Shown: positions 2,512 through 31,599 of the stretch, in pieces
Layout of the letters: every line of letters starts with the position of its first letter
Numbering within the stretch: position 1 is the stretch's first letter
Origin: Fennellomyces sp. T-0311
Taxonomy: Eukaryota; Mucoromycota; Mucoromycetes; Mucorales; Lichtheimiaceae
Direction of reading: 5' to 3'
Assembly: GCA_025266875.1 (NCBI GenBank)
Contig: JALLLT010000009.1
Coordinates: forward strand, 62,001-126,000
Length of the DNA: 64,000 nucleotides
Made by a program: the position numbers and the translations under genes
The notes under the pieces: model-generated
The model's input: the letters and a program-made list of their open reading frames with translations, nothing else
The model's database searches: none
Told to the model about the DNA's origin: nothing

Positions 2512-2917
2512 TTAATCATCCGAAGGCGCCGGGAACATAATACTGCCATAGTTGTGGCTAGTTTTCATAATTGCTCGGGCATGCTGGTACAGTTCCGCTG
2601 GTCTCATTTTGTCAACCGCGCAGAGCTCATCATATTCGTTTAGTTGCCCGTTCCGTATACGCTCAGTCAGGTCGTTCTGAATCAACAGTACGCCGACCTC
2701 TTGGAAAAGGACTTGTTGAAAGAACTCCTGGCCACCCAGAGAAGAAACAAGCTCGCAGTATTCTGGCCCCATTAGCATCGGAATATACATTTCATGGAGA
2801 GTATCAAGGATGACGCTTCCTCCTAACGCGCCATAATATCCTGGCTGTATATCATATGTAAGTTAAACAGTAAGTTGAATATTCAAAACTTATATACAAA
2901 TCACACATTACCATATA

Positions 2918-2945
2918 ACGTCCGGCCGGAAAAAATGTATACAAA
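2918..2945. repeat. Terminal inverted repeat, left end of the 2918-4787 element
   Basis: The inner 24 nt (2922-2945) match the right end exactly. The outer 4 nt (ACGT against AAGA) match partly. The palindrome CCGGCCGG lies within it. Confidence 0.9.
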
Positions 2946-3149
2946 GTTTGATTGCTTATATCTTCATGGAATCACAGCCATTTTACATAAAACAAAAAAG
3001 ATTTGATAGCCACGCAGTAAGATGATTTTATCATTTGGTTTTTAATACTCTTTGTCCTGTTATGAATGTTTGGTGGCTAGTAAAATAAAATTGATCAGTT
3101 TTTTTTTTTTCAAGAAATTTTTTGAAGATTGAGTACCAACCTTCTTGTA

Positions 3150-4658
3150 TTAATTTTCAGTTTCAAGAGAGCTACCATCTTCTTCAACAACTGCCACAGA
3201 ATGGACAGCGTTTCGCTGATGCTCATCATGATAATATTTGCATTGAATGACCATCTTTCTCCACAAAGATAAGAGGTCATTCGAATGCACTGCAGCAAAC
3301 ACGCGGTACAGTCGATGTGCAAATTGAACCTCAGTAGTATTTGCTGGCTCTGGGTTGTATGCAATCTGCTGTTTGACAATGCCCCACAGGCCTTCAATCG
3401 GCTGCAGTTCACAATGATACGGAGGCGTTTTCATAACTGTATGACCATATTTGCTGGCAATCTCATGCACAGCATAGGCAACAGGGTGCTCACTTCGTAT
3501 TTCCTTGAGGCGTTCAAGAAGAGCCCTCTTGGAAGGAAGTTTTCCAGGCTTTAGCGAAGGAGGCACTGTGTATTTGCTTTGTGAAAACCAGTCGCGGATA
3601 TCCTGGACACGAGCGTTGCTGTTGGGAAGTGGGTCGACTTTGCGGAAATGATACTTCGCACCATCCATATGGATGATGCATCCAGAAGGGAACCGTTCGC
3701 TAAGTTTTTCACAAAGTCTTTCAAAAAGCTTTTCGAACAAACTTGCATTGAAGTTACCATGGTAATCATGGTAATCTGGAGCGATATTGGCATCCTTTAC
3801 ACACTGTGGCAGATCGGCAAATGCTTGTGCAGTATTTTTTGTTGGGAGACGTCCACACTTGCGCTTCATACTGACATTCTCTTCTTCTTGAACATAGGCT
3901 TTGCCTTTGACTGGCCAGATGATTGTATTTTCTTCAACTAGCTCAGCCCTGAGACAATTGTTCTCCTTATAAACTGCAAAGGCACCAAACATTACCAACA
4001 TCGGCTTACGCCCAGTTTGGTTGACGACAGTGTCTGGGACATAGTACGTCCATCTGGTGTGATGGTATAAGTGACAGTACGACTCATCAAGAAACACCTC
4101 CGGTTGGATAGGCAGCTCATTACAATTCAGATTGTTCAAGCGTCTTTCCAGATATGTCTTTCTGTAATTGACAATGGCTTCGCTGTCATGAAGAATATTT
4201 TGCCATTTTCCCATCCCATAATGAAGTCCAGCAAGCTTCAAATCCTCTTTCATAACCGAGAGAGATGGCACATCAAATCCTTGGTTTTCGAGGTGCGTGC
4301 GGATACGTTTTGCTGTGGCTGGCTGACCGGTCTTGATGCATTCCACAGTGAAATTTCGAATTTCATTGACATACTCATCCGAGAGTACCTTCCTTGGGCG
4401 ACCTAGCTTCTTACTTTCATTTGGCAAATTCAGGTCATTAGAAAGGGTAATGATTCGTCCCGCCGTTGTGTCCCCAATGCCAAAGAGGTCCTGCAACACC
4501 ATGCACGGGGAGTCGTCAATATTGAAGTTTCCGAGTCTTCTGTGCTCGCTTATATATCGATGAGCGATAATAAATGAAGTCCATTCGTTTTTTGTAATGC
4601 GCGCTTGAGTGCGTTTTAATTCAGGTGATGCCATTGTATGCGATGAAATGTAGGTCAA
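3150..4658 (-). CDS. Tc1/mariner-superfamily transposase, intact
   Basis: Uninterrupted 502-codon frame; ATG 4658 or the second ATG at 4634 (MASPELKR) may be used. Residues 15-140 form helix-turn-helix DNA-binding parts with a GRPRK basic motif near 86-90. The DDE core shows Asp191 (FLDESY), Asp332 (HMDGAKYH) and Glu422 (QPIEGLWGIVKQ). About 89 residues lie between the second Asp and the Glu, far more than the 34-41 usual in Tc1/mariner. A Lys-rich insertion with many charged residues fills this gap. The C-terminus is acidic. All three acidic residues are kept and there is no stop, so the protein could be active. A broken relative lies at 35.1-43.7 kb. Confidence 0.88.
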   Translation of the reverse strand: MTYISSHTMASPELKRTQARITKNEWTSFIIAHRYISEHRRLGNFNIDDSPCMVLQDLFGIGDTTAGRIITLSNDLNLPNESKKLGRPRKVLSDEYVNEIRNFTVECIKTGQPATAKRIRTHLENQGFDVPSLSVMKEDLKLAGLHYGMGKWQNILHDSEAIVNYRKTYLERRLNNLNCNELPIQPEVFLDESYCHLYHHTRWTYYVPDTVVNQTGRKPMLVMFGAFAVYKENNCLRAELVEENTIIWPVKGKAYVQEEENVSMKRKCGRLPTKNTAQAFADLPQCVKDANIAPDYHDYHGNFNASLFEKLFERLCEKLSERFPSGCIIHMDGAKYHFRKVDPLPNSNARVQDIRDWFSQSKYTVPPSLKPGKLPSKRALLERLKEIRSEHPVAYAVHEIASKYGHTVMKTPPYHCELQPIEGLWGIVKQQIAYNPEPANTTEVQFAHRLYRVFAAVHSNDLLSLWRKMVIQCKYYHDEHQRNAVHSVAVVEEDGSSLETEN

Positions 4659-4759
4659 ATGAAAGCGAGACGTGTCAGGAACACGAAAATCGCAGTTTTA
4701 ACGTAAAAAAATGACATCACGAGGAAGTTCTATTAATGAGCACTTTTTGCACCCAAAAT

Positions 4760-4787
4760 TTTGTATACATTTTTTCCGGCCGGTCTT
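4760..4787. repeat. Terminal inverted repeat, right end of the 2918-4787 element
   Basis: Reverse complement of the left end, with 24 of 24 inner bases identical, followed by TA 4788-4789. Confidence 0.9.
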
Positions 4788-7700
4788 TAATTGTCAATTT
4801 CCATATATAATGTCATAGGACTTTTTGCACAACGCTTACCGAGTTTTTGATACTTTTCGATCACTTCTTCACGGAAAGGACTATATCCCCCTTGAATGAT
4901 ATCATCAAGGTCCGGTCTCAGTTTCTGGATCCTTCTTCTAAGAACTTGAAGATCAAGTACAAGTGGGTATGATCGCTCTTCCACAAGAGGCTTGCATATC
5001 GTTTCAATGTGGTGGCGTCGACAGAATTGTTCCCTTTGGGTGTAAGTTAACATGCGTCTAGTCTTTTCTGGATCTTGATCTACTGTAGCAAACAGGCCTT
5101 CTAGCACCTCGGTTGAATGAGGCTTTTGAAAAACTTGATGGCAAAAAGGGCAAGTTATAGCTACATACATATAGTAATTGATTAGCTAAAAAAAGCTAAT
5201 AAGCTAGGTAAACATACTTGTTCCTTGAGTAACTGCGCCGGTGGGTTGAAGTATTTCACTCAATTCGATACCATTTTCATGGACTATACGTTTGGGCTTT
5301 TGGACTAGTTCTATGCTGTCTAGTTTATACCAGACCAGAACAGTCAAATTGGTCGTTGTAAGCAGCTTATCGAATTCCTCAGGATCAGCGCTAAGCACTT
5401 CTATCTCCTTCGACTTGGCCAAATTGTCGACTTTCCCAAGAACTTGCTTTCCTCCATGAAGTATCGTCGCCACTGTATAGAAATGGTCACCGCGATGACT
5501 TGTGCCATATATTTGTGCACACTTGGTGTACTGAGCATTTTGAAATTGCAGCTTGTACAGAAAATGTGAACTCTCTATACGTTTCGTTTGGTCGTTGGTC
5601 CAGCTATGAGGTTCCACAATGAGGAAAGGAGAGTAGCGCGTAACAGTTTCACACGATGTCGCCTGCGTGTTACTGCAAGTTTCTGAACGGCAGTTCACAT
5701 GCCTGGGTGAGGATAGGGTAAAGTATGCAAACTGTGTGGTGAAAGCTGATGGGTCGTCTGTCGTTAACATCTCATCACAGTGATCAATGGATGAAATAAT
5801 GGCGTCTTCGCTGAAAGTATTGCCGCAGACGTTACATATGTACGTGCGTGTTACCGAACGAAAGAAAAGTTGCTGTATTAATGGTGAGGCTTTTGATAAT
5901 ATGAAGTCGTTGAAAAAATGAACTGGGCTGTTCATTTGTTTGCCAGCATAGGTCAGATCGCACCAAGCAAAGTGTCTTGCAATTTTGCTTGCTTCTTTCC
6001 GGCCTTGATATGTGTTTTGAGAGTGGCTGACAGTGCTTAATACCAGCATAATGTCCGTCAGATTATATGGCTTAGGAGGACCGAGATCTGCAATTTCATC
6101 AAGTTTCACGAAAGGAAAGACCGAAAACCATAGTGTCTCCATTATACAGTCGATAAAGCACGAGCTATCGCTGTTTGGTGCGATCTTTAACTCCAATGAA
6201 TCTAAATTATTCTCTGGTTAATATCAAGTATGAGACGCTTTTCATTCTATATACCTTCGATGATCTTTTTCTGCTGCTTCTTTTTGTGTAAATAGATAGG
6301 TGGTATATGAATAAAAATGCCAGAGTTGGTCTTGCCAGAGTCAGAGATGGTTGGATCAGTGTTGGTGAAATCTGGGACTGCTGGGTCAATGTTTATGGAT
6401 TCAGGGATGATCAGACCAGTGCTGATGGATTTAGGGTTCATCGAGTCAAGGTCGGTGGGGTCAGAGATGGTCGAGTCGCTGGTGTTGGAGCCGGGGATAG
6501 TCAAATTGGCATAACCGGAGACAATTGTATCAGATTCAATAGCGCTACATAGCCGTTAAACAGTATTTACGTCGTTAGCACAGATAAATAAACTTCAGCG
6601 TATCATATACCCCATACATTTTAGCCTTTTTTTGGGCACCATTGTCGTTGTTAGCCTCAAATTTTTGCTTTCTGGACTGTTTGTCAGCGGATTCGTTGAT
6701 TCTTTGGACAAGCGTCTTCCTAGGCTTAATGACATGCTTTTTTCTTCGACCTCTGACGGCAACTTTCTGCAGAATCTTTATAGTACCAGGTTCCGGATAG
6801 TGTGAGTCTCGAATAATCGATTCCACTTTATCCAACAATGCATTGCGCGCTTGATTATCCTTCATCTCTGCCAATTTGGTCTGCAGCGAGTAGAGTACGT
6901 TCATCGACCGCATACACAACTCATTCTGAATAGCTGAATATGTGTTCGGGGCTATTTAGGTATAATGATGGAAACGAATTAGCCATCTACATAACCTAGC
7001 CGCTTCTATAAGTGATACTGACCTTCTCTTTCTAAATGCCAAATAGCATCGATCTCTTGAATAGTTATAGGATCTTCTGGAAGCATGTGCTGACATGGAA
7101 GTGAGAAGTTGATCCTTGAAATGCACTGACATTCACCATTCACAATCCAGTCTGAAGTTCCTTCAACTCTACGTCGTAAATATTCATCCCTTAACACATA
7201 CAACGGAAAATGTGAGATCTTTCCAAAGATGTTAGCAAAGTAATGCTCATCAGTGGATACAACGACGACTGGACGGCTCTGCATTTCAGTATAGAATTCT
7301 TCCACTTGAGCCATTCTCTAAGTTTTCAATTACAAGCAATGTTATCTTTAGCACAAATCCACCAATCAAGTCTATAATGCAGAGTTGTCACACTTACTGT
7401 TGCTTTTTCTTCTTCATTGATTTTTTTAAATAAATGGAGTAGTGAATGTGGTTTGAAATGTGACTTGAGAACATTGTGTCTGCTTTCAACACGTTGCGTC
7501 GTCCGGTTTTCAAGATGAATCCTCTTTTCGCACCACGGACCAGCCCATTGCTGTCGGATGTCTATGGCGCTAATATATTATAAGTAGTGTAATTTTCAGT
7601 AACAATAAGAGCCATACTTCTGTAGATATTCGCTCAGTTCAGCGGGTTTACTTGAATCGATGGCAAGCCAATGGAAGTCTTGTCTGGCAGCCTCGAATTC

Positions 7701-8849
7701 ATCGGTGTCCCGGGTCCAGATCATTTTCTTGACAATGTCAGACATTTTTTCCTCATCTGATTTTTGATTATCGCATCTCTTGGTGGAGAGGGTACCGCTG
7801 AATTGCTTTTCAAAGTTGTTATACACATGCCAAGCACATAGCATTGTTTGACTTCCAGAGAATGCTTGCACCAAGGCTGAGACGAGCTTATTATCTTCAT
7901 CGGTGACGAATAAGGCAGGGGCCTCAGAGGTACTTCCTGGCCAAACGACGGTTCTGAGGATACTTGCGAGCCAAGTATAAGATGTCTGTTTTTCGTTGGA
8001 TAGCAAAGCATAACCAACGACGAACGTACACAGACTGTCATGTCCACCAAGATCGGTAACACCGACAATATGGACAAGTGGCATCTTGTGAAAGTTCGTT
8101 TTTTACGTTGCGTCGATAAGCACCACTTTGGAAAAGTGTCTCGCATTAGGAATGGCGTCTTTATGGATGATGAAGAGGTGCTTCAAGACGTTCGTGGTTG
8201 GCGTTACTTCGTAGTAAACTTCGTAGCCTTCCGATTCCAGATAGACCTTTAGGGGCTCGAACTCAGTAGACGCTCCAGAGACACTCTTCTGTTGCTGAAT
8301 GAAGTTGTAGATAGTCTTGCGCTTCACCACAACTTCTGGATAATTTTCCTCCGCCATTTTGATGGCACTGCCAGCAGATAAATCGCCACAGATAACCATT
8401 AGTGCCTTCTTTACATCTTGAGACAGCTTTTGATGCTGTATATAGCACCTGGCTACATCCTTCGGGTTCGCAGAGACAATCAGCTCATGGTTATGTGGAT
8501 TCCCACCAGCAATGTTCCCCTGCTCAGGTTTGTAACTGAAGATGGTACCAGAATGCAGCATCACCTTACGGATCTCCCAGAGTGGAACTGTTTCGCCTTT
8601 CCGTGCCTTCTTTGGTAAACGCGTATATATCTGCTAATTGCAGCCGCATGCCATCGTCTTCATCTTGCGTTGACGCTCCTGGCCGCCATTTTTGATTTTC
8701 CCATCGTGGACGCAGTTGACGTATCCGGAATGTTTATCTCCATTGACATGCAACGTAGCCACAGCAAAGCCATGATTCAATGCGTAGAGTTGGACATCTA
8801 GTTCCAATGCCTCTTTCAACGAATAGGTTTTTCCAATTAAGTCGCTCAT

Positions 8850-9774
8850 CTTAAGAACAAAGGGTAGCAGTAGTTTAGAGAGATACAATAACGTAGAGTA
8901 ATATGAAGGAAGACAAGACGTCAAGAACGCGTGTGATTTAACAGAGCAGGGCCTTATATACGCTATGCCACAAAGGTGCTTACTATTTTTATATGGATAA
9001 ACACATGTTCTGCGAGACATTAGATATCGCGAATAACCTTTATATGAATTTGTAGATCACGCATGCAATTCGCTTGAACAAGGCTATACATGTGCCGTAA
9101 GCTGATTATTAGTTGGATATAGAACATGGCTACACATGGTTTGACAAGCTCATCGCACGTGCAATTCATTTTGCATATGCTATTAAGATGAGCAATTTCT
9201 TGAAATAGAATGCATCCTCTATACAAGCGAGGAGTCTGTATAGTCTATTCGACTATTGCAAAGACAATGCTGGTTTCCATTAACAACTGATTATAAGAGA
9301 TTGTAAGACTAGTAGAAGTTGGGACAATCGCAATATCACTAAGAATTTCGAATAGCAGTAATAAACTAAATTCCGAGTGCTGTAGAAGGTTAGCAGCTGA
9401 GAGACTGAGAGTGTAAAAGCTCACATCATTGCTAACGAATGAATCGACGGAATGGATACGTAGATGAAGTTGAAAAAAAGTAGTAAAAGAAGTCGTTCCT
9501 GGATACAAACATTGTTGTTATGAAGTATTATTGATTACAAACTCAATATATATTTGGCAGCAGCATTAATCTGACGATCATGGAAGCGAATGTGGCGACC
9601 AAGAGGTTGCCATCAAAAAAGTCGCCATCAGAAAAAGTCGCCACCACAAAGCAGGCAATATCATTGGCTCTGAAAAAAACGGGTTTAAAAAAACGTCGCC
9701 ACGATAAGGAAAAAAACGTCACCACTGTAGTAATACCGAATTTATATATCGTAGCAACTGTTTTCGCAGAGCGC
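8850..9774. other. Upstream of the MULE-USP gene; no gene supported
   Basis: This is the 5' flank of the minus-strand gene starting at 8849. No long terminal repeat matching the DNA left of 2512 could be found by eye. A Lys-rich open frame at 9580-9855 runs into the repeat below and shows no family motif. Confidence 0.4.
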
Positions 9775-9924
9775 ATATTTCAGCATGCTGATAGTATGTC
9801 TGAAAGATTTCTGAAATACAACCTTTCAGACAAACATTTTAGAAGGCTGAAATAAGTCTGAAAGATGAATCTTTCAGCACATCTTTCAGCCACTGACAGA
9901 TACTGAAAGATATCCTTTTTTGCA
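9775..9924. repeat. CTGAAAG-rich short palindromic repeat
   Basis: About 150 bp containing many copies of CTGAAAG and its complement CTTTCAG, including the perfect inner hairpin CTGAAAGATGAATCTTTCAG near 9859-9880. One end, read inward, gives CACTGCAAAAAAGGATATCT, which resembles in style the end of the foldback at 2316-2417. It is probably a non-autonomous element at the 5' edge of the LINE. Confidence 0.4.
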
Positions 9925-11075
9925 GTGTCTTCTAATAAGAGTATCACCAAAGTGGAACTTTCTAAGATTCCCACTAGGTTGCCCATTAAAGACCTGGAAA
10001 TCAGGCTACGCGCTGCCCTCTCGTACTTCGGCACAATAATGCACCTAAGTCTGTACCGAGCGGCTGGGGGTTGGTTTCAGGACAATGGATGTGCTGTATT
10101 GGTCAACGATAAAGATGACTCATTGCTGAAGGATCTCATCCATCGGGTGGCATATGGCAAAATTAGATCTAGTGAACAAGAATTCTATGCGGTCTGGCAA
10201 GACATGGGTGATTATTGTCAATACTGACATGACGACGATCATAAAATTGAGGACTGTAAAAAACGACCAGTTCAAGGGTGCTTCAACTGTGGCCGCCACC
10301 GTCACATTGCTCGATACTGACCCCAGCCAAAGAATGAGCACCCAAGGAAACAGGCGAAAAAAACCACCAACCATCAATCAGCTACATCTGAGTCAAAGTA
10401 CAAGAGCATCCAAAAACGCCAAAAGGATAAGCAATGCCACACAGCCACAGGCACAGCAATGAATGATGGTGGCCCGAGCACCAATATAATTCGCCTTCCA
10501 AGACACCTCTTCACCAAAAAGCCTGAAGATCCAAAACAACCAGCAGATCTTGTCGCTGAGCCACCAGTCACCACAGTGGCAACTGCTCTCGTAGCACCAG
10601 TAGCACCAGTAGCACCAGTAGCACCAGCTACATCGGCAGTACCTGCTACACCGATCATTGAGATCGACTTCTCCAAGAGTCAAGAGCAAGGCATCGCAGC
10701 CTCGAAACACACGCCCAACATCAAGCCTGCCGACGAGCACATTGGTTCCAGCCAGTCCTTCACAGCCAAGATGCCCAGCGAAAAGAAAAAGAAGCAGCCC
10801 GCATCGCCGAAATCACAGCCCTCCTTGTTGACCTCGATGAGGAAGGAGACACCGTCATGATGGTGTCTGATGCTCCAGACCCCAATGTTCGGATCACTCG
10901 ATCTATAACAACGGAGCGAACTTCAGGCGAGTCATATCTTCAGAACCTGCTTCAAAATCTTCCAGATCATCCCATGGATAGCACCAGCGCCTCCAGAGCC
11001 GCCTCTCTTCAACCTCACATTGCGTACCACATCGTGACCACTGGTAATGCAGAGGCTGAAGAGGGGCCTTTGTAA
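9925..11075 (+). pseudogene. LINE ORF1 (gag-like, two CCHC zinc knuckles), broken
   Basis: One frame runs from about 9925 to 10860. An N-terminal RRM-like region is followed by two zinc knuckles of the form C-x2-C-x4-H-x4-C at about 10216-10257 and 10279-10320. In each knuckle one Cys codon is replaced by TGA (10225-10227 and 10318-10320). A Pro/Ala-rich region with an APVAPVAPVAP repeat (about 10580-10625) follows. A second frame, 10857-11075, begins by overlapping the first stop. The sequence fits the nucleic-acid-binding ORF1 of non-LTR retrotransposons. The 5' end is unclear. Confidence 0.7.
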
Positions 11076-11097
11076 GTGAAATTTCCATTTTCCTTTA

Positions 11098-11965
11098 ATG
11101 AAAATCAATATCGCAACACTCAATGTACGTCACCTTAGAAAAGGTGGCGACACACAAAAACAATCACAATTCCTATCAACAATACGACAACAAGCTCTAC
11201 ACATCCTCGCCATGCAAGAAACACGCATTTCAGGTGATGAACCAGATTTCATTCTTTCCAGCCAACTTCATGCTGCACACAGTATATAGAGTTACGCATG
11301 CGGCATGGTTAGCTTTACACCTTCCATTCGTTCCTACCTTATACGTTCCGTCCAACAAGGACAAGGGCTCTGGGTCAAAGTCATTCACACCAATGATGAC
11401 TTCGACCCCTTCTACATTCTGAATACATATGCCCCAGCAAATACCGGTGAACGTCACGCTTTCCTGCATGACATTATGCTTCCGCTTATGCAATCCGCAG
11501 AACTATCATCGCTCCTCGAACAGAGTATAGTTCTCGGTGACTTCAATTACTCATATGAACGGAATGATTCTTCATTTAGTAAGGCGCCAGTGTCATGGCG
11601 CGAATTTTTAGCCGAACATTTTATCAATGTGATGACACCTGGTTGTTGTATCCAACATGAACACACCCTAACAAGCTTCTTTGTCATCTATGCTGTCCGT
11701 CAGCGAATAAGAGCTTTCCATCCTTACCGCCGCTTCCCACTTCCGACATCGGAACGTTGAGCTTCATGCTTACCAAATACTCAGCCAATCAGGTTACTTA
11801 TAGACACGACCTTCCAGTCAACGCGTCTCTTTACGGATATGCTCTGTCAGCGTTCATCCTCTCGATCATCACGATCCGTAACTGCCCAATGATAATAAGG
11901 TTGACATTACACATCACTCACGGAAATACCGGCTTAAGGAAATCCCATCATGGATAAGCATTTAT
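11098..11965 (+). pseudogene. LINE ORF2 remnant: endonuclease domain, no reverse transcriptase
   Basis: ATG 11098 opens an APE-type endonuclease with TLNVRHLRKGG and LAMQETRISG, then LNTYAPAN and IVLGDFNYS. A TAG at 11287-11289 interrupts it where TGG is likely. The frame breaks near 11690. What follows (to about 11970) is already 3' untranslated-like sequence shared with the second LINE (GATAAGCATTTA...ATAAATA). The reverse transcriptase is therefore deleted from this copy. Confidence 0.75.
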
Positions 11966-11973
11966 TATAAATA

Positions 11974-12340
11974 TTGGATTTTTCCTCGAATAAGGTGGAC
12001 CTTTTTTTTAGCAATATGGCGGGTGATTATTTTCCAACATGGCGGCCCTTTTCCATTGGCGGGTCATGTATTTTACATTATGGCGGTTCGTGTACTTTAC
12101 ATTAAGGCAGATTATGTTTTTAACCAAGGCGGCTGATGTATATTTCATAAGGTGCTTGTGTGTTTAGTATTTGGCAGCAGTTTAAAACGATTATGGCCGC
12201 CTTCCTAAAAAATTATCATGCGCCATACCGTGTAATTGATTGCTCTCGTCACACACATGGAAGTTCACTTTTTATTTAAAAATGCATCAGAGCATCTGCT
12301 CTTCCAGAAGAAAGCAACATTTATACTCAGAGACAATGAG
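11974..12340. repeat. Left long terminal inverted repeat with GGCGG sub-repeats
   Basis: Matches the right end in inverted orientation over about 260 bp, then over about 90 more bp beyond a gap of roughly 300 bp present only on the right. It contains about seven direct repeats of 22-24 bp around the core TGGCGG followed by TNATGTATTTTACATTA-like DNA, a pattern expected of transposase binding sites. Confidence 0.85.
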
Positions 12341-12351
12341 GGGGAAAGGTT

Positions 12352-12999
12352 TTATTCCTGCATAAGTGACGGATCATTGCTCAACAAATCTTGAAGAATG
12401 TCCTGGTTCACATGCAAAATCTTTGATCGAATACGTTCTACAGGCTTTCTCGGCACTGGCTCTGGCATGACAGGCTTGTACGTTTTGATCAACTTTGAAG
12501 CTGTAGATCTTGGCATCCCGACGAGTTTACCAGCAGAACCTGGTGACAAACCCTCAAAGTAGTGACCTTTGATCACCTTTTTTATATCCTCAGCAGTATA
12601 TTCCCTGATGGTACGTTTTGCCTGTGACTTTCGCTTCTTCTTTTGTTGCTTTTTGGGTGGGGACGTCGAGCCGAGCGTTTGGTCGGGCGTTGATAAGGTC
12701 GCTTGCTGGGACAAAATTGGAGACACTTGCTTGGACACAATCAGAGACACCGGCTTGGACGGTTGCTTGGGCGCTTGATTGGACGCTGTCTTGGCTGTTG
12801 CTTTGGATAGCTGTTTGCGTGTTGCTTGGGAGGTTGATGGGGACACGTTCTTGCGCACTGATACAGATGTTGCCTGGGACATCGTCTGGCACAATGGATG
12901 TATCAATCCTGGAGACGATATCGGAGGCGTTGGGGGTGATGATGCTTGGAGCACTAAATGCTGCTGTTCGGTGTTCCCCATATCGCAGCGTTCAGACAT
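12352..12999 (-). CDS. Ser/Thr/Gln-rich helix-turn-helix protein of the nested transposon
   Basis: 215 codons from ATG 12999. The first half is low-complexity Ser/Thr/Gln/Pro. A basic stretch (KKQQKKKRKSQAKR) precedes a helix-turn-helix region at about 135-170 with the motif GSAGKLVGMPRSTASKLIKT. The end (HVNQDILQDLLSNDP) looks like the start of the linker found in IS630/Tc1 transposases, with no catalytic part after it. It may be a DNA-binding accessory protein or a split-off N-terminus. Upstream in-frame codons (...NLNDLNNALDDDDEE) extend to an AG at about 13064, so a 5' exon is likely. The gene reads toward the left terminal repeat and diverges from the transposase gene. Confidence 0.6.
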   Translation of the reverse strand: MSERCDMGNTEQQHLVLQASSPPTPPISSPGLIHPLCQTMSQATSVSVRKNVSPSTSQATRKQLSKATAKTASNQAPKQPSKPVSLIVSKQVSPILSQQATLSTPDQTLGSTSPPKKQQKKKRKSQAKRTIREYTAEDIKKVIKGHYFEGLSPGSAGKLVGMPRSTASKLIKTYKPVMPEPVPRKPVERIRSKILHVNQDILQDLLSNDPSLMQE

Positions 13000-13249
13000 C
13001 TCCTCATCATCATCATCAAGAGCGTTATTGAGATCATTTAAGTTGATCGATGCGACAGCATCACTAGTAAATAGTAATTATATCAGTATCATTTCTTTAA
13101 TTCGTTTGGATGTATAGTACATACTGCTTTCCCTTTACTACTAAAAATATTCTCCAACATTGATGTGAAACTTAATTATGAGCAAAAAACCAAGTATAAA
13201 AGTAACCAGTTACGTGGCTTTATTAGAGTATAGAAATGACGTATGATGT

Positions 13250-13467
13250 GGGACGTGATATAACATAAAGTTACTCGGGAATTGGATCTATTAGTTATTT
13301 GAAGATAGTATCTGACAAGGTTACCAAAAATTGTGATATAATGGGTAGCCTTAATGACGTATGAGAAGGACATAGTAAATGTCCGAGAAGTGTGTTCATA
13401 GGCGGTGTAAAGATGGTGTTTGACAAGGTTACCAAAAATTGTGACGCAATGAGTAACTTAAATGATA
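13250..13467. repeat. Tandem repeat, about 107-bp period, left part
   Basis: Two units share ACAAGGTTACCAAAAATTGT and GGACATAGTAAATGTC. They continue on the other side of the MULE at 17521, so the MULE landed inside this array. The array lies between the two divergent genes of the host transposon and may hold their control region (inference). Confidence 0.7.
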
Positions 13468-13476
13468 TATGGAAAG
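13468..13476. repeat. 9-bp target site duplication of the MULE, left copy
   Basis: TATGGAAAG directly before the terminal repeat. It is repeated at 17512-17520. Nine base pairs is the usual Mutator-type duplication length. Confidence 0.95.
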
Positions 13477-13899
13477 GGGAAAGGCTAAATGCACCCCCCT
13501 CTCGTGCACCCCACCCAGCACTTGTGACGTAGACAGTCGATTTCTAGCTAAAGCGCACCCTCACCCTGCACCCCTTCACCTTTCACTGTAGAATTTAACT
13601 TGACATGCCAAAGCGACCCGTGAGAATCCAACGAAACCATAATTAAACGCGTCATCCCAAATCAACCCGTGAGAATCCAGGGAAACCATAATTAAATGTG
13701 CCATGCCAAATCAACCTGTGAGAATCCAACTGGGCAATAATCGACATGGCAAATCGAACATTGAGAATCCAATAGAGCAGTAATCAAACGCGACACTCCA
13801 AGTCGACACGTGCGAATTCAGTAAAGCAGTATTCAGAAGTCGATAGCATTTGAATTTGCCGCCAGTGGAAAATAAATAAAGATATATTGCTCACCACTT
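13477..13899. repeat. MULE left terminal inverted repeat with about 50-bp sub-repeats
   Basis: Starts GGGAAAGGCTAAATGCACCC. From about 13610 to 13840 it contains about five degenerate direct repeats of 45-50 bp built on GTGAGAATCCA and AAACCATAATTAAA, spaced as expected for repeated transposase binding sites. Confidence 0.9.
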
Positions 13900-14010
13900 T
13901 AAGAGAATTCCGTGAAAGTATCTGTACAACAGTTCACAAGAAGATAAAAGGGTAGTCCTGAGCATCACTATTAAGCTTTCTTCCTTTTTTTATACTTAAA
14001 TTTTCCAGTA

Positions 14011-16978
14011 ATGTCATCCGAATCGCAAAACATGCCATCTATCAATATTGGTGATCGCTTTCCAACTATGGAAGATGCTCGTACTGCAATCAGAAAGTAT
14101 ATGCAAGCCTCCAACGTGTCAGCCACTACTATCAGAAGTGATATTGGCAAGCTTGTGATGGGCTGTAAGCACTCAGGCAAACCTCGCAATATCTCTGTCC
14201 GTCCTGACACAGTGAAACTGCCAACCGTGGTTAATTGTGACGGTAAGCCACAGAAAGAAGAGTCGAAGAAGACCAGAAAACGGGATTCGCAGCGCAAGGG
14301 ATGTCCATTCTATGTCAAGGCAGTAATCCGAGAAGGCCGAGAATGGGAAATTGTTCAAGTCGTAAACGAACACAACCACCGTATGGCACTTGACAAATTC
14401 TCGTACCCTATGAATCGACGTTTGAACCATTCACAACGCGAACACGCTGTGAAACTGATCAAGGCACATGCTTCAAATGCCGTAATCAGTAGTGCTTTAA
14501 AGGCACTTGGCGCAGGACCAATTCCAAAGGACATCGGTAACTTACGCCGCGTCATTTTCAACAATGATCCTGAACATCAGATGTTCCACCTGATCAACGA
14601 CCTCGAAGCAAACAGCTATCAGGTCAGATTTCAGGCAAACACTGATGAACAAGGTGTATCGACCCTTCGCTCGCTCTTTTTTGCACATAATGACGCGATC
14701 AAGCTAGCACGAAAGTTCTCCGATGTTGTTTGTCTTGACGCAACGTATAAGACCAACAAGCACAAGTTGCCTTTTGTCAACGTCACAGGCACTGCAAACA
14801 TCGGCTATCCCAAACTGAAGACATTCTTCATCGCTGGCGGTTGGATACTACATGAAGACAAGTCCACCTATGAATGGTTTGCCGAATGTCTGGAATCCGT
14901 GGTCTGGCCAGCGAAAGAGGGGATACCATCACCCAAAGTACTTGTCACGGATAGTGACAATGCAATCATGTATGCCTTGGATGTCATATTCCCCGCATCA
15001 TACAAGCTTTTATGCCAGGTCCATCTTCGCCGAAATTTCGAATCTAATATGGATAAGTTTTTCAAGGACAAGAATGACTTTAACTCCTTTATGCACGGCA
15101 TAAATATGATGATGATGTGGAAAATGGAAGACAGTCGCACTGGGCTTACGGTGATAGCCACTGACGACACATATAATGAGGGTTACCGCTTGGTCCAGAC
15201 TGCATTGGAAAAAACTCACAACCCAGAAATAGCCAAAAACTACATGAACAAGTAATCACCAATAATTTATAGTTATGTGCTTCCGCTAACAGTTACTTCT
15301 CTTTACTACTGAAAGAAAGCTAAACGTCGAAAAACGCTGGGCTGGCAAGTTCATTGCAAAGGTCCCACATCTGGGGAATACCACTACCAATCGTGTGGAA
15401 GGCGCACATGCGGAACTGAAGAAAAATCTGAAAGCATCAAGTAATTTCTATCTTGCATTCAAAATATTAGATCAATTTTATAATCTTAAGGTATGTACAA
15501 GTTCACATTAATTCAGAGAATATAACGTTTACATTAATATGTCACTTTTTCTTATATCTATTAGCTTGACTTGTATAATAAGCAAATGGACAAAGAAATG
15601 TTTGGGTTCGATGCCCATATTGCAGAAAGTGATGCCCGACGTCTGAAAGCTCTTTCCTGCAACATATCACGATTCGCATTCGACATAATCAAGTCCGAGA
15701 TTCGTCGATCGAATATGCTACAAACAATTCATTGCCAATGCGTTATTAAGCATGTATTCGACATTCCATGTTGCCACGTACTTCCTCTTGCTGGTGAGAT
15801 TCCGTTGTCGATCGTTCCCAGGAGATGGCATCTCTTTCCTGAAGATACATGTAAGAAAAATTAGCCATTTCAGTCAACGTATATATTTATCTCTATATCC
15901 AAAGTTGATCCATACATAAACACATCAGCCGACCATGTTTCACCAAACGAAGGCGATGCTTCCATCCTTGCAGTTGCCAGTGATTATACGCCCGAAACGA
16001 TCCATGACCGGATTTCCACAGAGCTGTACCGTATTGAAAAGCTCCAGTATATATACACCGATCAACAACAGCAAGTATCTCTTTTGGAAAAGTTAACAGC
16101 CATCAACCGCAATTCCTTCATCGACCTTAAGGAATTAAAGCCACCAAAAGGGAAAGAATCAGCAAAACGCAGTACCAAGCGAGATGCAATTTTCAGCGAG
16201 ATTCACGAAAAAGAATCAAAGAAAAAGGCTAAAACCTTATTCGCCAAAGATGCTCTTGATGCATGGTACGTATCCCACTGCGGTATATAATTTAGAACGC
16301 GCTTAGGGCACTTAATATTTAATATACTTACATCGGATAATATCGTGATAGGAATGGTGGCAGTTTGCCACAAGGAAACCAAAAACAGCCAGTAATAACA
16401 CAAGGACCTGCCACGCCAAGTGATAAAGCCACTGTGGATCAATATGATGACATACTTCACCCTGTCGCACCTCGCCATGCAATCACACGTATCAACAACG
16501 TAAGCGATGATGGTAATTGTGGTTACCGTGCAATTGCTTTGGCAGTGAAATCCGATGAAAGCAAGTGGGGAGAAGTTAAAGATGCCATGCTGGAACACCT
16601 TAACAATCATATGGCATTATATCTGCTTCTTTTTGGAGACAATGATGTTCGTAGGGTTGTGAGCCGGTTGACCAACCGGATTTCACCAACAACTTCAGCA
16701 TTTTGGTTTATGGTTCCTGAAGACGCGGTCCTTGCAGCTAATACGTTTAACGTGGCAATTGCATGCTATGTTCCGATAGTTCAATGCTTTACGTGCCAAT
16801 GTTCAACCTACCAGCGCCACACCCGATTATTATCCAGTTGCATGCCGCCCATTACTACCACATCGAATATAAAACACGTGCAAAGATTACGTGGCCACGT
16901 CTGTATCCAGCACATTCTTCTTTCTGTCGTCGCCATCAATTACAAGACTTTTCACTTGCTTTTCCTCATTTATAATTG
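14011..16978 (+). CDS. MULE transposase fused to an OTU-type cysteine protease (one frameshift)
   Basis: Exons 14011-15251, 15316-15490, 15565-15850, 15905-16265 and 16352-about 16978 join in phase with no stop. Order: FAR1/WRKY-GCM-like zinc domain (C at GCKHSG, GCPFYVK, EHNHRM); MULE DDE core with Asp in CLDATYKTN, Asp in LVTDSDNA, CQVHLRRNF and Glu in RVEGAHAELK; SWIM finger (CQC...CCHV); Lys-rich linker; then an OTU domain with catalytic Cys in DGNCGYRAIA. The OTU His (LHAAHYYHI) lies in another frame, so a 1-nt loss or 2-nt gain occurred near 16768-16775. The start ATG is 111 bp inside the left terminal repeat boundary. The transposase part looks intact. The OTU fold would cleave ubiquitin-like conjugates if functional (family knowledge). 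Confidence 0.88.
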
Positions 16979-17088
16979 TTAGTTTTTACTCCCCTTCTTT
17001 ATATATGTATATCCAATAGTAATCAACAATTTTGACTTATCACACACTGAGACACTATATACATAGATCTAAGTTGGCTCCTAGCATG
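16979..17088. other. 3' untranslated stretch of the MULE gene
   Basis: Short AT-rich spacer between the stop of the OTU frame and the right terminal repeat. Nothing else is seen. Confidence 0.5.
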
Positions 17089-17511
17089 AAGTGGTGGGCA
17101 ATATATCTTTATTTATTTTCCACTGGCGGCAAATTCAAATGCTATCGACTTCTGAATACTGCTTTACTGAATTCGCACGTGTCGACTTGGAGTGTCGCGT
17201 TTGATTACTGCTCTATTGGATTCTCAATGTTCGATTTGCCATGTCGATTATTGCCCAGTTGGATTCTCACAGGTTGATTTGGCATGGCACATTTAATTAT
17301 GGTTTCCCTGGATTCTCACGGGTTGATTTGGGATGACGCGTTTAATTATGGTTTCGTTGGATTCTCACGGGTCGCTTTGGCATGTCAAGTTAAATTCTAC
17401 AGTGAAAGGTGAAGGGGTGCAGGGTGAGGGTGCGCTTTAGCTAGAAATCGACTGTCTACGTCACAAGTGCTGGGTGGGGTGCACGAGAGGGGGGTGCATT
17501 TAGCCTTTCCC
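17089..17511. repeat. MULE right terminal inverted repeat
   Basis: Inverted copy of 13477-13899, 423 bp long, ending in GGGTGCATTTAGCCTTTCCC. Confidence 0.95.
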
Positions 17512-17520
17512 TATGGAAAG
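17512..17520. repeat. 9-bp target site duplication of the MULE, right copy
   Basis: TATGGAAAG, identical to 13468-13476. Confidence 0.95.
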
Positions 17521-17848: not shown

Positions 17849-19344
17849 ATGTCTACTTTCACACCGAATCTCGATTTACAGAATATGCTCCCTTTTCATG
17901 AAGCAGAGGATCAACAGATGCAAGACATTTTCCGCGAAGCATACGATGTCATGGAAGGACAAGTTGACATAGAGGACCAATACCAAATCATTGTTGACGA
18001 GTTCAACGAAGGTACTGGTGGTATACAATCATTGGTGTCGATGACTGCATGAGAAAATGTACCTCAGGTATCTTATACGGTGTTAAATGTGTATACAAAT
18101 GTTAAGAGTTTATTGACAAAAAAATAAATAAACAGGAACAGCGTCCAGCAATATTTGTCCAAGCACCAAAAGCTAGGGGAAGACCACCAAAGAAGCATGA
18201 ACCTAAAGACGACGTTCCGAAAAGTATGTTGCCCACTACTCAATAATCATCGAATCTAAATATGACCATAGAGACACGAAGAACATATACAGACAAAGAT
18301 ATCGTCCACCTGATCGATACCATCCAAGAGTTCGCATTGAGCGCTGCTGCAGCTGCACCCATAGCGCTAATGTCAGTACGATTCGCTCAACGGTATTGAA
18401 AATACTATCGCGATGGCGAGCCCTACCTTCCTTCCCTCCGAAAATCAAACAGCAAACAACAAGATCCTACTTTGCTCCAGCAGCACACTCATCACCTGGA
18501 ACAGCTGTATGACAAGGACCCCACCACAACACTTGCCCAAGCACAGGAGCTCCTCCTAAGAGTCTACAATGTCAAGATCACACAAAGCGGTCTACAAAAA
18601 CATTTGGTGAAGCATTGTGGGCTTACTATGAAGAAGATTGAACCAGTATCCAAAGCCCGAAACTCTCTCCAGACGATCAAGGCTCGGTTTAACTGGGCTC
18701 TTGATATCACAAAGCGCGGTCTTCTGTATGAAAACCTCATCTTTATCGATGAGGCTGGCTTCAACATGTACATCCAAAGGTGCTTTGGCCGGTCAAAGAA
18801 GGGTAAGCCTGCAAGAGCTACGGTATCGAAGTCGAGAGGTGCAACAGTGACGATTTTGGGTGCGATTTGTACCGAGGGCGTGATCAATTTGTCGTTGAGA
18901 AAGCCCCAGCTTGTCACTGGTACCAAAAAGAGAAAGCTTGGCGCCGATAAAAAAGAGACCATCATGATTGGAACGCGTGCGGAGCACTTCTTGGAATTTG
19001 TCAAGACCGTGATGTGAGTGGTGCTTGATAACAAATTGCAGCAACAGATTATTGTTCTTGACAATGCAACAATTCACCATACAAAAGAGGTGAAAGAGGT
19101 GGTCTCAGCGCATGGTTTTGAGTTTCTTTTTCTCCCCCTGTACTCGCCAGTGGCAAATCCGATCAAATTGTTTTGGTCGAAGCTCAAGAGTGGTGTCAAG
19201 AGGCATACTTTGACTTCTGCTGACACACTCACACCAAGAATCATCAACTCCGCCCACCTTATCACCAGCAAGGATTGCAAAGGATGGATCAGGCATTCTG
19301 CAAGTTATATCCCACGCTTTCTCCTGGAAGAGCAGATGCTCTAA
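17849..19344 (+). pseudogene. Tc1/IS630-type transposase, broken (DD34K)
   Basis: Starts at ATG 17849. Two introns are inferred (about 18067-18137, and GTATGTTG...CATAG about 18222-18269) that keep the frame. An AT-hook-like GRPPKKHEPK lies near 18176-18205. The DDE core has Asp in LIFIDEAGFN and Asp in IVLDNATIHHT. The expected Glu of the NPIE motif is Lys (ANPIKLFWSKLK), 35 residues after the second Asp. In-frame TGA codons stand at 18050, 18397 and 19015, all explainable as TGG or CGA to TGA. The gene ends against the right terminal repeat. Confidence 0.8.
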
Positions 19345-20064: not shown

Positions 20065-22375
20065 TGACCCTCGCCAATGCTATATTCCAACCTGGCACTC
20101 AACCGCTAACTTGTCGTCTTTCTCATCTAATGACTATGTGTTTTTGCCGGAATCGCTGCACAGCGTCAGCTCTTCTTCAGAAATCGATTTTCTGAACCCC
20201 ACTTGGACTGACCATTCCCTGATCACATTTTCCCTGCGATGTCCCAGGGTTACTGCTGGTGGCCATGATATCTGGCGTGCTAACCCGTTTCTAGCCTGGT
20301 TCAAGGCCTTCCAGATGAAAATGGGAGAGGATCTAGCTGCTGTCCACAACCAAATTTCAACATGTTGCAGTCCTCAAGAAGCATGAGAACTGACTAAAAA
20401 GACCGTTCAACAATCTTGCCGGCAGCACGGAAGATACGAAGCCACAAGGCGCCATCGACAACTGAAGCACCTCCAACGACAGCGGAATCGGATGCTTCGA
20501 GCACAGAAAAGTATGCAAGAAACCCCACATCGTCCAACTGCAGTGTGTACCGCCATTGTAAATATCCAGGAAGAGAATGCATAGATCTATTCACTCAAAG
20601 CAAGTGTTCGCTGGAGGGAAACGGGGGAAACATCCGCCGGATACATCAAGCGTACTGCGAGACAGCGTCAAGCACAACGAAACATGGTAGAACTGCAACA
20701 TCCATGCACAGGAGTCTCAGGCTCCTCTCTCGATCACATGCATGATGCTGCAATGACCTTCTAGCAACAGTTATACAAAACTGAGCCTACTAATGAGGAA
20801 GCCATCTCAGACATTCTTAGTGGCATCCCACCTTCTTGCGTTCTCGACGACTCTGACCGCGACCTGCTAGTGCAAGATATAACACTGGAGGAGCTGCAAA
20901 CGGCTGTTCGTCGCTCACCTAAGCAAAGCAGCCCTGGGATGGATGGCTTACTGTATGCAATTTTAAGCCTCCTTTTTCATCATGAAGCAACGGTGGATCT
21001 GATTGTGCAAGTGTACAACGAGGCACTCCAAAATGGCATCTTCCCCTCATCATGGTCTGAGACCTTCTTGTGTCTCCTTTCAAAAAAAGAGGACTTGACG
21101 AATTTGGCCAACTGGCGCCCGATTTCTTTGATCAATACCGACGCCAAGATATTTACTAGGATCCTCAACGCGAGAATGGTATCTGTCAGCGCAAAACTCA
21201 TCAACAAGTACCAGACCGGCATTCGACATGGTCGATATATTGCCGATAATGGCTTGGTGGTGAGGTTGGCAATGGATCATGCAGCAAAACAAGGTCTTGA
21301 TGACATTGCTATGGCTCTGGATAACGAGAAGGCGTACGATCGAGTACAGCCCCTATACCTGGAGCACTGTCTTGAACGGTTTGGATTCCTGGAAACGATT
21401 CGGAGGTGCATCGGAAATCTTTTCTTTGGGACTAACATAAGGATCAACATCAATGGGCCCTATCCCCTGCCATCCAGCAAGGTCGAGGAGTCCGCCAAGG
21501 CGACCCGTTGTCTCCGATCTTGTTCAATCTGACACTGGAACCCCTACTACAACGAGTACTGCACGACCCTTCTATCCATGGTTTTGTCCTGGAGCGCCCT
21601 GGCCCTCTTATTCCAGCGTTAACGGAACTGTCTGCCCAGCTCAAAGTCCTAGCTTATGCCGACGACTGCCTCTTCTACATACACAACCCGTCTGATTTAC
21701 ACCGAATCATGCATCATCTCATCACTTATGGACAAGCATCGAACGCCAAGGCCAATTTCAACAAAATTCACGCTATATCCTTGTCTGGCAAATCGTCCGT
21801 GACCTGGCCGCCACAACTGGCTCAATATGATATCCACTCTTGGTACGATCAGACCTCCACCAATGCATTGGTCTACCTTGGATACACTCTTTGCTCTTCG
21901 CCTATCCAGCGAGATGCTTTTCTTCAAGCACTTCTTGTTAAGATTCAATCGGGCTGTCAAATACAATCTCAACGCTCCCTGTCTATTGTTGTATCCAACA
22001 TGAACATAATCACTGATCAGTATCTCGGAACGGTTATCTCTCACTTTCCTTTTTGGTAAAACTCACTCATGCAGACATATCTTCCATATCCGGCATATTA
22101 TCATAGACGTTATCATGAACGCGTGTCAACAGCTATCACTTAGCTTATCGTTATCCGTTATGGACCAGCTCCATAACGATAGACATCACTCGTTTCTCAA
22201 TAACACCCCAACATGACATACGTAATGGATATACAGGTATAATCATGATATGACCTTGGATAACATCGGTAATAGGAAGTCCCATCCATGATAAGCATTT
22301 AATATAAATAGAGCGAACTCTTCATCAATAAACTACAGTTTTCTGAGTCTCGTTGACTTCTATTGTCCCTTTTCG
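20065..22375 (+). pseudogene. 5'-truncated LINE 2: endonuclease end plus reverse transcriptase, broken
   Basis: One frame runs from about 20066 through the endonuclease end (SNDYVFLPESL, WTDHSLI) and a linker into a reverse transcriptase (SSPGMDGLLY, NWRPISLINTD, ALDNEKAYDRV). Stops interrupt it at TGA 20384, TAG 20582 and TAG 20762. A frameshift near 21490-21500 moves the frame to GVRQGDPLSPILFNL and then the AYADDCLF catalytic motif (about 21655-21680). Coding ends at 22059. The 3' tail (22060 to about 22370) shares GATAAGCATTTA and GTCTCGTTGAC with LINE 1. The copy starts right after the LINE 1 tail. Confidence 0.85.
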
Positions 22376-30105: not shown

Positions 30106-31599
30106 ATGCTGGTATCCGCCATCGGACTTGCGGTGCTCGCCGCATCTTCCGCCACTGCCGCCGCCGCTGCCGAGATCAAGCCAATCACCATTCCCTTGGT
30201 GCGAAATCAAAACGGCTACGGCACTCGAATCAGACGCTCCTCCATGGAGAGGCGCCAAGCGTCCCCCACCACCCAGCGTCTCTTTAATTCTGATGGCCGC
30301 GAGTTCCTGATCGAGGTCGGCATAGGAACCCCTGCGCAAAAGTTCAACGTGACGTTGGATACTGGAAGGTATGTGTGCCTGGTACGACCGAAACCAGCGT
30401 GAAAAGAAAAATCGGGCTGAGCAAGCAAGCATATCCCTTTTAGCGGTACGTTATGGGTGCCTTCGACCGATTGCTCCATGCTAAACTGTCCCTACGAGCG
30501 ATTCAACGCGTCCGCTTCAACCTCAGCCCAAACGACGAATGCTACTTTCCAAATAACGTACGGCATTGGTATGGCGAACGGCACCTACGTCCAAGAATCT
30601 GTCACTGTGGCGGGTCTAAATATTCCCAACCAAGTCGTTGGTCTGGCTGCTGAAACCGAGGATATATACGGTGGCATGTCCGAGGGATACAGTAATGGCA
30701 TTATGGGCTTTGGTTTCCCGGGCATGAACGCTCTGCGTGGATACGAACAGGACGTTCCTTTTATATTCAACCTCGCAAACAACAACCTCATCCCTGAAGC
30801 AATATTTTCTATCTACCTCAACAGCCAGTTCGAGTACGGATATTCGGGAGAAATCACGCTTGGTGGCATCGACGACTCAAAGTATACTGGCTCACTGACA
30901 TATGCGCCTGTGGCCAGCTACACGCTAGGTACAAGCACAGGGCAAGTCATTCAGGATGTGTACATCTATTGGACATTGGGTGGTACTGGTATCCAGACTT
31001 CGACCGGCTTCAATACCAACTTTGCCGAGGTGAAAGGCTTCATTCTCGACACTGGCTCCACGCTGACGTATGGCCCGAAAGAAATCACCGACCAAATCGC
31101 CCAATCAATTACTGGAACTAGTGCCCAGCAGATCTACGACGTGTTCTACGGCATGTACCGTATCGACTGTGGACTTGCTTCGCGTGATGATACCATCACT
31201 TTCTCCGTCGCCACAAACCCTCAGTCACCTGCAAGTGACCCATACAAAATGGCGGTACCGCTTCGTGAAATGATCGTTCCGCTGAATGCCCACACACCCG
31301 AAGAGGCACAAGAGTGCTTCCTCGGTGTTGCACCAATGCCAAATAGTCTTTCCTGGGAATCACCGATTGAATATGTTCTTGGAGAGTCGGTGTTGCGCTC
31401 GTTCTATACGGTACATGATATGGCAAGACGTCGTATTGGCATCGCCCCTGCCGCCTTTGTCCAAAGTAGCAATGGATCAAACGGAAACGGTGATGGTAAC
31501 GGCAACGACAAGAACGCCACCGGCTCTAACCTTCTTCGGTCGCTGAGATCAGTAATCATGGTAGCTGCCATGGTAACTGGCATCAACATGCTTTTCTAA
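30106..31599 (+). CDS. Pepsin-like aspartic protease, probably GPI-anchored (yapsin type)
   Basis: Exons 30106-30368 and 30444-31599 encode 472 residues. A signal peptide (MLVSAIGLAVLAASSATA) is followed by a propeptide with the basic site RIRRSSMERR. The catalytic DTGS motifs are Asp85 (split by the intron, DTG|S then GTLWVPS) and Asp290 (ILDTGSTLTYG). A long flap region contains several NXT/S sites. The C-terminal lobe ends with YVLGESVLRSFYTVHD, matching the family's ILGDxFLRxxY. The tail is Asn/Gly-rich, then hydrophobic (VIMVAAMVTGINMLF), as in GPI-attachment signals. It should act at the cell surface or be secreted and hydrolyse proteins. Length is slightly above secreted Mucorales pepsins because of the tail. 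It is intact. Confidence 0.92.

Follow-up and report, generated by a model that had tools for sequence, protein, structure and literature searches.

The window analysed here, a stretch of 64,000 nucleotides (C172:62001-126000), belongs to the genome of Fennellomyces sp. T-0311 (Mucorales, Lichtheimiaceae; 45.6 Mb, 182 contigs) and harbours two Mutator-like elements (MULEs), element A on the minus strand (2512-8849) and element B on the plus strand (13477-17511). In both, the transposase is fused behind a SWIM-type finger to a further module, and the modules are predicted to have two unrelated deubiquitinase-type protease folds, as the initial annotation of this DNA had claimed: a ubiquitin-specific protease (USP) fold in A and, according to profile comparison with the Protein Data Bank (PDB), an OTU fold in B. 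Such fusions recur elsewhere in the genome, where OTU and USP modules exclude each other among paired hits, sister transposases carry one or the other, and the tree of the USP modules disagrees with that of the transposases.

Element A displays the order MULE transposase, SWIM-type finger, linker, USP-fold domain and RTC4-like domain, and GT-AG joining yields eight exons with 1322 codons, all in phase, running from 8849 to 2512 on the minus strand. Exon 1 (7618-8849) comprises the N-terminal part and the MULE (DDE) core PF10551 (71.2 bits with stops read as X, cut-off 27.6), exon 2 (7398-7569) the end of the DDE region with RVESRH, exon 3 (7023-7317) the SWIM-type finger CQCISRINFSLPCQH at 7131-7087, and exons 4 and 5 (6255-6951; 6618-6951 and 6255-6544) the linker to the USP-like domain. 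The latter is encoded by exon 6 (5218-6213), with Cys at 6160-6158, His at 5485-5483 and Asp/Asn at 5428-5423, and is followed by the N-terminal part of the RTC4-like region in exon 7 (4840-5160; alone without Pfam match) and the RTC4-like domain in exon 8 (2512-2840; PF14474, 1.7e-13, 51.3 bits vs a cut-off of 23.7). The claim that A runs from its SWIM finger into a USP-like domain is thereby upheld by exon joining, by Cys, His and Asp/Asn in order, and by a finger within the domain. The SWIM-type finger itself, CxCxnCxH, was found as a motif in A and B, and no Pfam SWIM match was obtained at E<=1. The window copy of A is broken by two in-frame stops within the transposase (8634-8636 and 8103-8105); the related copy at C142 has a 482-aa frame that is open across this stop region of exon 1.

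A DDE_3 (Tc1/IS630-like) transposon with the inverted ends CCGGCCGGAAAAAATGTATACAAA is nested in the last intron of A (2919-4787, minus strand), and its insertion site is empty in C169 and likewise in C138, the latter judged only by 25 matching bases beyond the site. Upstream of A, the stretch 9326-9607 recurs inverted 3' of the RTC4 exon in C169 and is probably part of the terminal inverted repeat (TIR) of family A. No 3' TIR or target site duplication (TSD) was seen in the window copy, whose match to C169 ends at 2427; an imperfect palindrome (76%), about 100 bases long, lies near this point at 2316-2417. Parts of family A were encountered at six loci, the transposase side in the window, contig C19, C142 and C120, and the protease side at C169 and C138 besides the window. 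Similarity to A is lost shortly after the start of the USP exon (window 6190) in the stretch read of C19, in the linker close to the contig end in C142, and before the USP exon (6379) in C120, where a DDE_3-like piece, 76% like the nested transposon, lies beside the MULE A copy. C138 shows the same order of finger, linker, USP and first RTC4 exon as A. No second complete copy was seen in the stretches read at the six loci.

Element B is delimited by TIRs of 423 bp that are 99.76% identical (left 13477-13899, beginning GGGAAAGGCTAAATGC; right 17089-17511) and by a perfect 9-bp TSD, TATGGAAAG, at 13468-13476 and 17512-17520. Its five exons on the plus strand join in phase from the ATG at 14011 to the OTU box DGNCGYR: exon 1 (14011-15251) with an AFT/FAR1-like N-terminus (PF08731, PF03101) and the MULE core PF10551 (60.9 bits, cut-off 27.6), exon 2 (15316-15490) with NRVEGAHAELK, exon 3 (15565-15850) with the SWIM-type finger HCQCVIKHVFDIPCCH, exon 4 (15905-16265) with the linker, and exon 5 (16352-16982) with the OTU domain. 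The DGNCGYR box stands in frame, but a frameshift follows it, and the His box of the window copy is out of frame; in the relatives C14 and C128 the OTU exon is open for 211 aa, through the His box. The assertion that the exon phases join in both elements holds for all eight and five exons, respectively, though not for intact reading frames, as A carries its two stops and the OTU exon of B its frameshift.

Nine open OTU exons of the genome, 23-94% identical to the first row of their alignment, share 22 invariant columns, including D-G-x-C-G-x-R and the His, and the catalytic Cys and His are invariant in 9/9 members. A profile built on them matched 6dx5 best in the PDB (4.7e-9), a chain labelled RNA-dependent RNA polymerase which we take to be a viral OTU domain, followed by OTUD5 (3pfy, 5.3e-8), OTUD1 (4bop, 1.4e-5) and also OTUD3. 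In Pfam, PF10275 was hit by seven and PF02338 by two of the nine members, with best E-values of 0.014 and 0.087, below the cut-off, which is a detection threshold and no defining trait of the fold. Pfam searches recovered MULE in A and B above its cut-off and OTU below it, and no match to Pfam UCH (PF00443) at E<=10 was obtained in six USP-like members.

The module of A (P0009, 331 residues) presents a USP fold with a C-x2-C and C-x4-C finger, its predicted catalytic residues C793, H1018 and D1037/N1038 standing in USP order. In the A4 alignment the His box keeps its Gly and its His in all six rows, and the Cys box is absent from two. The profile made from A4 matched only two USP36 chains in the PDB, weakly (E 1.7 and 2.5); searched by sequence there, the USP domain of A alone matched zinc fingers only and the C134 module unrelated chains, and none of 2143 candidates from a protein database matched the USP region of A at E<=0.01. 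Modelled structure points to ubiquitin USPs as matches of A's domain, its neighbours, generic USP folds, including SAGA Ubp8. The C90 module, which in our reading is without the CxxC finger, may resemble USPL1, judged from a low-confidence model, the top four Foldseek rows being USPL1 from SUMO complexes (7zju, 7p99; 3.1e-4 to 3.0e-3), whereas A's module keeps its finger; the VIA ranking of the same model places Ubp8 and USP15 first, with low Z. Not every USP module can be active, because C171 has a Tyr where the others have His. The modules at C134, C161 and C171 contain stops or frame breaks.

Of 196 MULE candidates in the genome 150 were scored, so that counts are lower bounds, and they were divided into strong (>=49.9 bits) and weak hits (<=47.3 bits). 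Pairing considered same-strand matches up to 4 kb downstream, or up to 5.5 kb in the case of RTC4, with three OTU and two USP queries, and drew on 70 of 85 OTU rows (15 second pieces of listed loci omitted), 23 new OTU places and 12 merged USP places. Among 86 strong hits an OTU module followed in 53, a USP-like module in five, both in none and neither in 28; with fewer queries and 3.5 kb the figures were 49 OTU, 3 USP and 34 neither. The weak hits, OTU being nearby in 1/64, represent a second, numerous set almost without protease. Conversely, 39/93 listed OTU places and 7/12 USP places are not preceded by a MULE hit in the adjoining 4 kb; some are truncated relatives, and others may ride on other elements. 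Six OTU matches, at C118:187291, C120:37582, C130:234660, C156:102284, C161:673299 and C161:917753, all have 256 aa open, score 48.7-48.8 bits and lack a MULE hit in the 4 kb upstream; they are perhaps OTU on another element type. Two very similar USP-like open reading frames (ORFs), C161:20431-21381 (L080) and C161:848700-850000 (L082), had no transposase on their strand in the stretches read, and the USP-like module may therefore exist alone.

The fusion is present in a second species. Among five proteins of Circinella minor (P0001-P0005), four (P0001, P0003, P0004 and P0005), each named in its source by one domain only, lead from a SWIM-type finger into an OTU-like tail, and P0001 (38% identity, covering 89% of the query region) is the only one predicted to unite a MULE core with an OTU tail that retains its Cys. 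P0001 and P0004 retain DGNCGF, P0003 has lost the OTU Cys, and P0005 is without Cys box; P0004, listed as OTU domain-containing in UniRef, and P0005 are without full MULE core. P0002 is devoid of OTU and represents a MULE transposase running into a retrotransposon gag-like/CCHC region (PF03732). As the gene models of Circinella minor were made by others, they support the reading of transposase and protease as a single protein; of the MULE-protease fusions elsewhere in Mucoromycota, for which the initial annotation proposed a survey, P0001 is a predicted case of the OTU type.

Some related transposases differ in their tail. C172b (C172:165157; OTU and RTC4) and C90 (USP) have transposases 53% identical over 425 aa, fingers 58% and linkers 46% identical, and then run into different proteases. 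In a tree of 19 transposase cores, which omits the plant rows P0006-P0008 (core pattern not found in them) and includes the rows C179 and C68 with tails of unassigned type, C172b is sister to the C90/C46/C105 group (100/99) and A stands on its own long branch. Forcing A and the C90 group together was 17.2 log units worse (approximately unbiased test, p=0.0024), so that a single USP clade is rejected and the tree of the transposases shows two or more appearances of USP. OTU together with RTC4 was also found at C161:57k and, with interrupted OTU, at C127:291k, so RTC4 is common to OTU- and USP-bearing elements; none was seen behind C90.

The same kind of USP-like module is fused to a different transposase class at C134 (L079) and C171 (L065:1930-3810). 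P0010, the annotated protein of C171, extends into the USP Cys box and the first CxxC, and P0011, an unnamed database protein, ends in the same Cys box. Pfam gave no convincing match for the C134/C171 transposase itself; we call it GCM-type because its relative P0012 (blastp 1e-74) has the GCM domain PF03615 (4.4e-7), and on no other ground. That it might be a MULE relative was considered and rejected (profile vs MULE core E 0.4; blastp E 0.52 or worse). In a tree of six USP modules A groups with C171 (100/99) and C90 with C134 (90/92), and forcing the A and C90 or the C171 and C134 modules together was rejected (p=0.0008 each), in groups picked after pairwise scores had been seen, with long branches flagged and with the C171 row joined from broken segments. 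Judged from these alignments, module history disagrees with transposase class twice, and transfer in either direction would fit.

It could be supposed that separate MULE lineages captured host deubiquitinases independently. The host has USPs, with 32 PF00443 matches of which several belong to the same gene, and MULEs elsewhere take up gene pieces (Pack-MULEs, in the available passages of PMC6431247). However, the transposon modules match each other at E-values of 8e-46 (C90-C134) and 2e-15 (A-C171), whereas ORFs of eight host USP loci reach no better than 0.14 in pairwise comparison with them, and OTU is spread across the strong MULE hits, which makes independent host capture unlikely. Since the USP modules resemble those on another transposon class more than they do the eight host loci compared, exchange fits better, and protease cassettes seem to have passed between transposons and not to have been freshly captured from the host each time. 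The repeated, convergent capture suspected at first is thus retained as to repetition, for USP, and abandoned as to convergent capture from the host.

Two observations slightly lower the confidence in the reading favoured below. Long-branch warnings were issued for both trees, A being among the flagged rows in that of the transposases, and the USP-like ORF at C161:20431-21381 may belong to a neighbouring MULE-OTU element; inverted ends were seen from 21680 on, with the partner at the end of the analysed stretch (27400), so that the element may extend further.

A second alternative, that the tails are passenger domains without function, decaying as relics, draws on the broken state of both window copies and on the stops or frame breaks in the modules of C134, C161 and C171. 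Against it stand the invariant OTU Cys and His, the OTU fusion in a second species, the presence of a differently folded isopeptidase in the equivalent position, and a ratio of nonsynonymous to synonymous substitution (dN/dS) of about 0.3 between families, and we regard it as improbable, slightly more so than host capture. Between OTU exon families dN/dS was 0.29-0.32 in the four comparisons with usable dS, 8/15 comparisons being saturated and three close pairs giving 0.30, 0.56 and 0.75. Two recent copies of the B transposase, with codon differences of which 5 are synonymous and 11 nonsynonymous, look nearly neutral. The pattern fits function kept over longer times, with copies decaying after insertion.

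We favour, as a rather probable though not a firm reading, that a large group of the fungus's MULE transposases has one slot, behind the finger and linker towards the C-terminus, for a putative isopeptidase module that would act in cis, commonly OTU, with a USP-fold module taking its place in at least two lineages. OTU was probably the ancestral occupant, judged by its spread, and the USP-fold module was apparently obtained from, or shared with, the second transposon class with GCM-type transposases. That one fold was replaced by an unrelated fold of the same activity class suggests that the activity itself was retained; the module would then be an active isopeptidase for ubiquitin or ubiquitin-like proteins (UBL) which, tied to a DNA-bound transposase, would work in cis at the transposition complex. 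Its likeliest target would be ubiquitin or SUMO on the transposase itself, which would save the transposase from proteasomal loss or inactivation. A role as polyprotein protease, cleaving the fusion and freeing the transposase, might be read from the linker that precedes the module in A and B, but OTU and USP folds are ubiquitin/UBL isopeptidases, and we consider it very improbable. Less likely targets would be chromatin or the repair proteins present where the DNA is cut: a module that deubiquitinates, e.g., H2A/H2B or repair factors at the insertion or excision site, in place of the transposase, is in keeping with SAGA Ubp8 among the structural neighbours of A's domain, though these are generic USP folds, and with the post-transposition repair role proposed for Ginger1 Ulp1/OTU in passages of Bao et al. 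(2010, PMC2836005); no sequence feature here tells it from self-protection of the transposase, and it appears rather unlikely. As a wider and more tentative possibility, only a little more plausible than action on chromatin, isopeptidase modules may be interchangeable cassettes traded between unrelated transposon classes, namely OTU, USP-fold (twice from GCM-type elements) and, in other MULEs, Ulp1, the finger-less USPs maybe being USPL1-type SUMO isopeptidases.

Beyond the two elements, the window contains a DDE_3-like ORF (18400-19014; 1.7e-5, below cut-off), a reverse transcriptase ORF (20765-21529; PF00078, 1.4e-14) and two ordinary-looking genes, for an aspartyl protease (30421-31596; PF00026) and a FAD-binding protein (45330-46763; PF00890).

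Among the closest known systems, Circinella minor P0001 is a predicted protein that joins a MULE core and a SWIM-type finger to an OTU-like tail, as in element B. A study of 2006 by Babu and others is said to link WRKY-GCM1 fingers with MULE transposases, and it reportedly may mention OTU or ULP fusions. A MULE with OTU or USP was not found in the open-licence literature among the matches listed: PMC6416283 has no mention of OTU, MULE, ubiquitin, SWIM, ULP or protease, PMC10799480 and PMC7928374 have no passage on a MULE-protease fusion, and the main text of PMC11069148 names MULE genes with OTU absent. Transposases with a ubiquitin-like-protease tail have been published since at least 2006 (Hoen et al., as cited in the available part of PMC2836005), and the same passages report Mutator elements with Ulp1 in Hydra and lancelet as well as in several plants. 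Such plant KI-type and other Ulp1 MULEs likewise combine a Mutator transposase with a protease for ubiquitin-like proteins, but their fold is ULP/SENP, while in this genome none of five PF02902 matches, at three loci, lies near a MULE hit (lists compared by eye). Ginger1 transposases, in the passages of PMC2836005 available, carry OTU or Ulp1, never both, and resemble the present elements in mostly GT-AG introns and TIRs; theirs is an integrase-type transposase with animals in the table, whereas here MULEs of a fungus carry OTU or USP, with RTC4 in some lineages. The Trichomonas vaginalis protein XP_001314237.1, the single one named there, joins a transposase to a USP-type Peptidase C19, as here, but its transposase is of the transposase_11 family and not MULE. 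Helitrons/Helentrons (PMC6431247, in part) have an OTU-like cysteine protease within a transposon protein as well, though with rolling-circle Rep/Hel and no DDE transposase.

In the passages of earlier literature at hand (PMC2836005) the use of the protease tail is only suggested. The present elements offer a natural swap, in which transposases about half identical continue from one and the same junction into either OTU or USP and provide natural chimaeras for assay; the function of the tail becomes testable, because a needed activity should survive the exchange of folds and a relic need not. The findings suggest that accessory domains move between transposon classes, and, if the wider exchange of cassettes is true, a single function in transposition would be performed by three folds that are not related to one another.

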